The notes under the pieces are model-generated. The model saw only the letters and a list, made by a program, of their open reading frames with translations, made no database searches and was not told where the DNA came from. Shown here piece by piece: positions 6,989-57,117 of a stretch of DNA of 64,000 nucleotides (the stretch's first letter is position 1; every line of letters begins with the position of its first letter). A program made the translations under genes and the position numbers. This DNA is from Alistipes senegalensis (GTDB lineage Bacteria > Bacteroidota > Bacteroidia > Bacteroidales > Rikenellaceae): positions 1,034,169-1,098,168 of the forward strand of contig JAMPGH010000001.1 of NCBI GenBank assembly GCA_023664045.1. The letters are read 5' to 3'.

Positions 6989-7028
6989 TCCAATTCATAA
7001 TTTATAATTCACATAATTCACAATTACC

Positions 7029-7290
7029 CGATCATATACTTTGATGCACCAGCGTTTCTCGACCTTTATTTTCAAATCCGGCCGTTGTAGTTCGCGGCCG
7101 ACGGCCGCGTATTCAGGTCTGACCCTCCCGTAGACTGCGGCAGCAGGTGAGCGCAATCGAGCTTGCTCGGATTGCCGAACCGCCACAGCAGAAGTGGAAC
7201 GCAAACCCCTCCTCGGAGGGGACTTCGGTCGGAAAGCCGAAACTATTCACTTTCTTGACCGTTGCGTTGGTACATCAAGGTATATAATCG
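7029..7290. repeat. MITE-like element, copy 1 (262 bases)
   Basis: The left end CGATCATATACTTTGATGCA and the right end TACATCAAGGTATATAATCG are imperfect inverted repeats. Two bases outside each end lies the same 8-mer CACAATTA (7019-7026 and 7293-7300), like a target duplication. The interior is a reverse-orientation match to the element at 56844-57030, including the blocks TTTTCAAATCC, GCGTATTCAGGTCTGACCCT and GGACTTCGGTCGGAAAGCC. Copy 1 carries about 74 extra bases (about 7130-7204), which contain a hairpin. No open frame of recognisable function is present, so it would be non-autonomous. Confidence 0.8.
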
Positions 7291-15813: not shown

Positions 15814-15904
15814 ATCAAGTGAAAGAGGATCGGGCGTTTTCCGAATCACTTTCGTGTTTTCGCCTTCGTCCGCACGGCTTTTAAAATGGGCGGCGTCTCG
15901 GCAT

Positions 15905-15925
15905 CCCGCTAAGAGCGGGGATATT
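15905..15925 (+). terminator. Hairpin after corA
   Basis: CCCGCT and AGCGGG pair around a three-base loop, followed by an AT-rich run with four T residues. It lies about 90 bases after the corA stop, just before the 72-base promoter repeat. Confidence 0.5.
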
Positions 15926-15927
15926 TT

Positions 15928-15999
15928 AGATACTTCGGTCTCGGCAATGCTCAAATAAATTTGGCATTGCCCTCGGCTCTTCGTATCTTTGTCGAGTTA
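15928..15999 (+). repeat. 72-base palindromic repeat with embedded promoter, copy 1
   Basis: By eye this is identical over 72 bases to the reverse complement of 56112-56183. Its arms pair imperfectly from end to end: GATACTTCGG on the left with a TTCGTATC end on the right. The inner stem GGCAATGC/GCATTGCC is perfect, around an AT-rich loop. It ends 10 bases before the LysE-family gene. Confidence 0.85.
15960..15991 (+). promoter_or_regulatory. Consensus promoter of the lysE-cmk-ispH run
   Basis: TTTG (15960-15963), a 20-base spacer, then TATCTTTG (15984-15991) fit the Bacteroidota consensus exactly. The predicted start of transcription is near 15998, about 12 bases before the ATG of the LysE-family gene. 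The promoter lies wholly inside the 72-base repeat. Confidence 0.8.
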
Positions 16000-16009
16000 A
16001 AATGCGATC

Positions 16010-56111: not shown

Positions 56112-56183
56112 TAACTCGACAAAGATACGAAGAGCCGAGGGCAATGCCAAATTTATTTGAGCATTGCCGAGACCGAAGTATCT
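56112..56183 (-). repeat. 72-base palindromic repeat with embedded promoter, copy 2
   Basis: This is the reverse complement, by eye identical over 72 bases, of 15928-15999. It lies 11 bases upstream of the flippase ATG. Confidence 0.85.
56120..56151 (-). promoter_or_regulatory. Consensus promoter of the flippase gene
   Basis: On the minus strand TTTG (56151-56148), 20 bases, then TATCTTTG (56127-56120) match the consensus exactly. The predicted transcription start is near 56113, about 12 bases before the ATG at 56101. Confidence 0.8.
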
Positions 56184-56345
56184 TCGACGAAGTCAAAGAT
56201 ACGAATAAGCCGAGCGCAGAAACAAGCGATAGCTTAGTTATGCTGAGACGGAGTATCTTCGATGAAATCAAAGATCCGACTAAGCCGGGCTTCGTGCCGA
56301 ATTTATTCAAGCGAGAGTATCTTCGGCAAAGCCAAAAATACGAAA
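56178..56345. repeat. Tandem degenerate promoter-like units
   Basis: Three units begin near 56178, 56250 and 56317. Each starts GTATCTTCG and has a palindromic partner AAAGATAC or a decayed form of it. On the minus strand they read TATCTTTGACTTCG, GATCTTTG and TATTTTTG, like -7 boxes. No gene is seen between the flippase and the DUF3467 gene, so these units fill most of that gap. Confidence 0.55.
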
Positions 56346-56499
56346 AACATGGCGAACCGGTGCCGGGGATTCCGAAAAAGACGCGGAGCCTCTCCGAAAA
56401 GTGGGATATGTTGATAAAATATCGAAAACTTTGGCTTCCGACTTGTATAACGGGTGTCGGAAACGGATACTTTTGTAGTTGCAATCATTCCGGAAGCCT

Positions 56500-56843: not shown

Positions 56844-57030
56844 CGATTATATACCTTGATGTATCGACCATCAGGAAAGTAAATAGTTTCGGCTTTCCGA
56901 CCGAAGTCCCCTCCGAGGAGGGGATTTAGGGGAGGGTCAGACCTGAATACGCGGCCTTTAGCCGCGAACTACACCGGTCGGATTTGAAAATAAGGGGCAA
57001 TAAACACTGGTACATCAAAGTATATAATCG
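56844..57030. repeat. MITE-like element, copy 2 (187 bases)
   Basis: The ends are CGATTATATACCTTGATGTA and TACATCAAAGTATATAATCG, inverted repeats with one mismatch. Two bases outside are the near-direct repeats TTTCGTTA (left) and TTTTGTTA (right), 7 of 8 identical. The interior matches the other copy in reverse orientation but without its extra 74 bases. No protein-coding frame is credible. The region 57031-57117 is a short AT-rich stretch with nothing else recognised. Confidence 0.8.
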
Positions 57031-57117
57031 GGTTTTGTTATTTCCGATCAGGAGAATTGTTTTTCTCCGATGAATCATCCGACCGGAGTACTCTCCCCGA
57101 TTCTTAATTCCGGCGTT

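Follow-up and report, generated by a model that had tools for sequence, protein, structure and literature searches.

Putative mobile promoter units at resident -7 boxes in Alistipes, two of which bound a 40-kb inversion

Why should one palindromic repeat of 72 nt stand, letter for letter the same, in front of two unrelated genes of Alistipes senegalensis some 40 kb apart? The copies lie in inverted orientation within the 64,000-nt stretch of DNA analysed here (the window), copy 1 before a lysE gene (15928–15999, plus strand) and copy 2 before a flippase gene (56112–56183, minus strand). An inverted-repeat search found their 72-nt arms to be 100% complementary with 40,112 nt between them; seven other inverted pairs of at least 30 nt, among the matches listed for the window, were 71–95% complementary. 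The flanks of both copies diverge outside the 72 nt, as the original prediction had it, and each copy carries the TTTG-N20-TATCTTTG arrangement described there (15960–15963 and 15984–15991 in copy 1). In both, the final 8 nt (TCGAGTTA) fall between the -7 box and the gene, the copy ends 10 nt before the gene and the ATG follows 18 nt past TATCTTTG. Given that the -7 box occupies positions -12 to -5 in a related flavobacterium (a section of PMC9723704), the leader would be about 14 nt long, near the 12 nt that had been claimed. The genes had also been named correctly: a LysE-type translocator (PF01810; 16010–16687, plus strand) lies behind copy 1 and a Polysacc_synt flippase (PF01943; 54632–56101, minus strand) behind copy 2. 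Copy 1 folds well both as plus-strand DNA (z -4.3; 1/200 shuffles equally good) and as minus-strand RNA (z -4.4; 0/200), and a search of the window with Rfam at the gathering threshold gave no match.

Listing the copies, a check proposed at the outset, revealed a large family in the same genome, of which these two are members; the refuting case of a pair with no further copies therefore does not apply. BLAST with the 72-mer returned 52 matches at E ≤ 10 and 15 at E ≤ 0.001, and a covariance model (R1) returned at least 101 at E ≤ 1, a lower bound with 150 candidates scored. We examined 91 R1 matches, leaving out two on contig C2 and eight with E > 0.1; 71 of them end in a box-like 12-mer. Six of the 71 proved to be copies of a different repeat, which has a GTAAAGTTC end; once these were dropped, 65 promoter-type units remained, occupying 29 sites singly and 14 as arrays (43 sites in all). 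The unit, about 74 nt long, has a constant frame (GACTTCGTC-GAAGATAC-TCC-NCTCGGC ... GCNCTCGGCTTA-TTCGTATCTTTG) around a variable core, which takes several mostly palindromic forms in the 24 copies aligned; one further core resembles an intrinsic terminator (CCCCGTTAAGAACGGGG). Between different sites, ten unit pairs reach 95% identity or more along their full length, core included, and at three loci (C1:270753–270930, 1740955–1741132 and 1750478–1750655) a terminator-core unit is followed by the same hairpin unit, suggesting that units may have been copied recently and that several may travel together.

On the plus strand of the window, the full lysE unit spans 15917–15991 (C1:1050085–1050159; R1, 73.9 bits). 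It contains a palindromic core of type A (GGCAATGC-T-CAAA/TTTG-GCATTGCC; 15943–15971, from the folding of copy 1), a TTTG at the -33 position (15960–15963) and the TTCGTATCTTTG box (15980–15991) with its -7 element TATCTTTG (15984–15991), assigned from the consensus in parts of PMC7366714 and PMC9723704. Just 5' of copy 1, a stretch at 15897–15920 (plus strand; CTCGGCATCCCGCTAAGAGCGGGG) looks by eye like a remnant of the terminator-like core of the CCCCGTTAAGAACGGGG units. Three units, all found with R1 on the minus strand, precede the flippase gene: the gene-proximal one at 56120–56194 (88.9 bits; TATCTTTG at 56127–56120), a second with a different core, type D, at 56194–56269 (C1:1090362–1090437), and a shorter third at 56269–56333 with TTCGTATTTTTG before it.

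A secondary structure drawn by hand on the same 24 aligned copies pairs in 94.4% of cells, with both-side changes in 58 cells (23.1 ± 3.5 in shuffles), counts that represent sequences within a few core families rather than independent events and controls that leave kinship in; shifting the structure by 1–3 columns lowers pairing to 44% or less. The linker holds three further pairs that covary (GAC/GTC, GGC/GCC and GAT/ATC). Two of the five covariation measures were not above the shuffles, namely pairs with both-side changes (72/500 as high) and further pair types (500/500).

Other hairpin repeats were seen alongside the family. The repeat with the GTAAAGTTC end has no promoter box and occurs in six near-identical copies (C1:371662, 485272, 526367, 950245, 1487055 and 1727181). 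Related hairpins ending in GAAAACGTTC or similar lie at C1:1479027 and C1:498791, both with an identical 12-mer on either flank, and at C1:105372–105520, where they form a tandem pair 74 nt apart. The window contains a second inverted repeat pair (7026–7258 and 56871–57033; 107 nt at 88% and 56 nt at 95%), of which the 7-kb copy includes some 70 nt of additional hairpin-like sequence (7133–7202) that is absent from the 56.9-kb copy; similar sequences occur at C1:324693, 654182 and 1692717. In G084, one of the relatives compared below, four near-identical tandem units precede an open frame (L268, C1:316570–316875), the last ending in GCACTATCTTTG, and by eye this array is more uniform than most arrays of the A. 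senegalensis genome.

By position and consensus, the units are predicted to be promoters. The motif TAnnTTTG at -7 is a Bacteroidetes housekeeping promoter element according to parts of PMC7366714 and PMC9723704, and 54 of the 65 units carry this sigma-ABfr -7 motif exactly. A TTTG lies 17–23 nt 5' of the -7 box in 25/65 units, with about 10% expected by chance, and the -33 element therefore does not seem to be general in the family. An ATG opening an ORF of at least 100 aa is found within 60 nt on the gene side at 33/43 sites and on the far side at 9/43; it is missing on the gene side at the other 10/43. Gene starts were placed by this ATG rule, since the longest-ORF rule chose incorrect frames in places (recF and queD, for example). 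Judged by eye from their sequences, the proteins encoded behind units include what we take to be RecF, RecG, QueD, YchF, Dxs, MazG and MiaA. Near-identical units thus precede non-homologous genes in one genome, as is characteristic of mobile promoters, and the suggestion of a dispersed promoter in front of unrelated genes holds at the level of sequence and position (65 units, 43 sites). The shared control envisaged with it has an equal competitor: several of the genes that would be driven look like housekeeping genes, and a general promoter fits as well as a regulon. Could these simply be ordinary conserved promoters, read by one sigma factor and bound by one regulator, that have come to look alike by convergence? 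The -7 box is, in the sections of PMC7366714 and PMC9723704 cited above, that of a normal Bacteroidetes promoter, but convergence would have to account for the ten near-identical cross-locus pairs, cores included, and for orthologous genes that carry different cores or no unit, and we regard it as scarcely credible.

All 65 units end in a box on the gene side, and at many sites another box lies on the far side. Directly ahead of the first unit, a 12-mer sharing at least 8 of 12 letters with TTCGTATCTTTG occurs at 26/43 sites (26/49 before the six were dropped), against a background of 0.7% of positions 16–60 nt further upstream. At 17/43 sites no box is recognisable there, and a box in this place may be part of an undetected older unit. 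Orthologous loci show what such sites look like when empty. When empty sites were searched for automatically, most hits joined one repeat to another, and only lysE and mazG were usable. We compared 40 lysE orthologues (up to 96% identity, nearly all in Alistipes records). In A. muris (L073), the gene has a plain, unit-free promoter ...TCGCAGCTTTTTCGTATCTTCG (...TGTCGCAGCTTTTTCGTATCTTCG) followed by the leader. In two other orthologous loci (L036 and L038), the upstream DNA is homologous to that of A. muris as far as the box (10 and 9 of 12 letters, respectively), after which come one unit ending in TTCGTATCTTCG and then the homologous leader. The box is accordingly single in A. muris and stands on both sides of the unit in the other two, the duplicated sequence also belonging to the unit itself; the gene-adjacent variant at lysE, TATCTTCG, is the variant of A. 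muris.

At mazG, the A. senegalensis locus is occupied, and no unit was seen by eye in the 12 other orthologues printed; the leader in G009 resembles the A. senegalensis leader right behind the box. At this locus the original box has decayed, and the intact unit stands behind a damaged one. Alignment to an empty site covers both flanks at lysE (two species) and at mazG, and the leader side alone at the other loci; box junctions are seen in orthologues of a few genes. At C1:951816, the native box variant TATTTTTG of two relatives, G007 and G084, is kept beside the gene, and at C1:958838 the first 18 nt past the box are those of G084, where no unit was seen and about 160 nt of other DNA lie between leader and ATG. 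For queD, ychF and miaA, the distance from box to ATG is similar with and without units in close relatives. By eye, the ychF box lies further upstream in the more distant relatives G013, G019 and G078, and no queD box was found at that place in the distant relatives G020, G024, G027, G034 and G072. From these comparisons, units appear to sit at a resident -7 box and to leave the leader intact, most clearly at lysE. A direction of copying between lysE and flippase, considered on the basis of the 8 nt that the two copies share beyond the box, was dropped, because relatives' leaders of both genes already resemble those 8 nt.

Such a pattern might arise with no targeting at all, if units landed at random or were copied by microhomology-driven template switching and selection kept those at the promoter position, the shared box reflecting convergence or survival. 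We know of no dedicated enzyme for units of this kind, and a box of 8–12 nt is enough microhomology for template switching; the recurring pairs of terminator-core and hairpin units at three loci suggest copying of more than one unit. Random landing, however, predicts neutral insertions further upstream. Against it also stand the insertions at lysE (two species) and mazG, whose junctions coincide with the box, and the native box variants that persist beside the gene at lysE and C1:951816. Units confined to boxes are nevertheless what selection for functional promoters could produce, and we consider placement without targeting unlikely rather than implausible.

The two copies in the window add a second aspect. 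The original prediction held that inverted copies could allow inversion of the 40-kb segment between them, and comparison with two relatives bears this out as a past evolutionary event. In alignments of at least 250 nt, contig C30 of G007 carries the window in the order 64000 to 56372 (reversed), 16010 to 56198 (forward) and 15824 to about 1 (reversed), and contig C1 of G084 in the order 64000 to 56404 (reversed), 15926 to 56275 (forward) and 15809 to 3 (reversed); the segment 15992–56119 is thus inverted relative to both. Compared with G007, the breakpoints fall within 15825–16009 and 56199–56371, at the two copies. The DNA upstream of lysE (at least 200 nt, outside units) is that of window positions 56.4–58.5 kb in 32/40 orthologues and the corA-side DNA of the A. 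senegalensis arrangement in 0/40. Upstream of the flippase gene, corA-side DNA is found in 12/29 orthologues and 56-kb-side DNA in 0/29 (the A. senegalensis row was left out of this tally, and a looser rule gave identical neighbour counts). Neither side matched at 8/40 lysE loci and 17/29 flippase loci, among them one (L234) in which the sequence starts within the gene. These neighbours make the A. senegalensis order of the segment most simply the derived one. The flippase array now adjoins DNA at 56334–56440 (minus strand; AAGTTTTCGATATTTTATCAACATATCC...) that by eye resembles what is elsewhere the lysE promoter region, and the two copies are identical, as would be expected had they recombined. 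The inversion is seen in one assembly, and identical inverted repeats can cause assembly errors, although the contig that holds the window is 1.88 Mb long. In other Alistipes, the upstream neighbour of one lysE locus (L039) and one flippase locus (L238) is another part of the window, and the neighbours at these two and a further lysE locus (L035) hint at additional rearrangements.

An invertible promoter or phase-variation system, in which a recombinase reversibly flips the 40 kb and the copies are its sites, would likewise place identical inverted copies at the ends of a segment that is inverted relative to relatives, and invertible promoters are known in gut Bacteroides (part of PMC10939037). 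It seems to us very improbable: units are scattered across 43 sites, facing either way; lysE and the flippase gene keep an identical promoter either way, so flipping would switch neither; and G007, G084 and most lysE neighbours show the other order, as expected of a single past event.

We therefore favour, with a probability of roughly three in four, the explanation that these are short non-coding mobile promoter units placed at resident -7 boxes, and that two of them recombined and thereby inverted 40 kb. A unit would enter at a resident -7 box, such that the old box ends up upstream while some box stays near the former distance from the start codon, the unit supplying the sequence that adjoins the gene-side box. 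Repeated entry would produce tandem arrays. One or more units may be copied between box-length homologies, by a process that would target boxes rather than be merely filtered by selection. Units that are alike and dispersed would also recombine with each other, and an exchange between the lysE and flippase units would account for the identical copies and for the inverted 40 kb with the breakpoints observed there. On this reading of the sequences, the family may be described as promoter-targeted, REP-like mobile promoters.

How a box might be found is suggested by the hairpin itself, whose left outer-stem arm pairs with the box. In 7 of 12 chosen examples, the stem has 6–7 bp even though the box differs: AAGATAC/GTATCTT in the A. 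senegalensis unit, ACTTTAC/GTAAAGT and ACTTTGC/GCAAAGT in other repeats of the same genome, CGTTGC/GCAACG in another genome of the genus (L117), AGATAG/CTATCT in G084, AAGATAG/CTATCTT in G057 and ATATAC/GTATAT in G044, from another genus. In the other 5/12 it has only 3–5 bp. Such pairing across families could mean hairpin-guided targeting. A tentative and rather doubtful extension is that a hairpin superfamily picks its targets by base pairing, with an outer-stem arm complementary to the box and both changing together between families, the address of the present family being the core promoter box of housekeeping genes.

The same pairing, together with nested hairpins, dispersed intergenic copies and tandem arrays, would fit a REP/REPIN element moved in trans by a RAYT (Y1_Tnp), in which a hairpin bearing a guide sequence is cleaved and rejoined in single-stranded form; this proposal concerns mechanism only and could be combined with placement of mobile promoters at resident boxes. 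The short stems of the five examples above do not favour it. Moreover, the REP transposase domain PF01797, the one enzyme family looked for, gave no match in the 37 genus genomes searched (A. senegalensis 86% complete, the others 71–99%), although five of them have at least 12 BLAST matches to the unit; it is present in 19/24 genomes of other genera in the order. RAYT-driven spread was rejected on the lack of PF01797 matches in the genus sample, and we judge it improbable.

Among known systems, the element would function as mobile promoters do and has the appearance of a REP-type repeat, but it appears to sit on a promoter box. Mobile promoters and promoter propagation are reported to have been described by Matus-Garcia et al. 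in 2012 and van Passel et al. in 2014, both cited in PMC8049555. The likeness lies in promoter-bearing short repeats before non-homologous genes; the present unit would differ from that class in that its frame is constant, its palindromic cores are interchangeable, units follow one another head to tail and the seat is the resident -7 box. MITEs with outward promoters, for example those of Porphyromonas gingivalis, are non-coding, dispersed and partly palindromic and may drive neighbouring genes. The units share all of these properties, but their repeated flank is the promoter box itself and, in contrast to the usual target duplication of MITEs, the duplicated box is also part of the unit (papers on P. 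gingivalis include PMC4596501 and PMC5771137). REP/REPIN elements with RAYTs are likewise short, dispersed intergenic hairpins that are sometimes arrayed, and short palindromes in many copies are found in the present family too; the genus genomes searched gave no Y1_Tnp match (0/37), however, and the unit is about 74 nt long, has a promoter box and is flanked by boxes on both sides. In REP/REPINs, the hairpin tag is a GTAG or CGTC tetranucleotide, according to an excerpt of PMC3733652. Bacteroidales invertible promoters also have inverted repeats that bound a segment differing in orientation between genomes, but here the segment measures 40 kb and the repeats are themselves the predicted promoters. 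ERIC and BOX are short imperfect palindromes, as are the units, and BOX is modular; they are not known to have a dedicated enzyme, and they would be set apart by host and by the -7-box placement of the unit.

The family is unevenly distributed in the genus. At E ≤ 1e-8, R1 matched 55 of 151 Alistipes genomes, 19 of them with at least 20 matches (32 candidates per genome were scored, and per-genome counts are at least those stated), and gave none in 96. At E ≤ 1e-3, 33/61 relatives had matches, including 4/24 from other genera, and several of the best matches among those relatives end in other boxes. Unit-like hairpins with TATATTTG or CTATCTTTG boxes on both sides were seen by eye in other genera of the order (L113 in G044 and L119 in G057). 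Carriage by phages or plasmids was considered and set aside: a 64-nt unit gave no match in phages, one exact unit pattern had 0 matches in viral contigs, and the plasmid search returned a single weak 34-nt match, from Phocaeicola. Our literature search found no paper on this element or on such repeats in Alistipes.

What does this mean for the organism? The promoters of apparent housekeeping genes (recF, recG, ychF, dxs, miaA and mazG, names assigned by eye) appear to have been rebuilt by one mobile unit. Since such a unit appears to occupy the -7 box and approximately to preserve the distance to the start, the host could tolerate it and gain tandem promoters. Given that some Alistipes genomes are rich in units and 96/151 have none at E ≤ 1e-8, one could date the spread and look for what caused it. 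If targeting by base pairing is true, genes would be re-promoted one by one without a known REP-type transposase, and base-pairing hairpin elements would build hotspots for genome inversion. The 40-kb inversion that sits on two units ties promoter evolution to chromosome rearrangement, and is a concrete structural consequence of putative promoter units.
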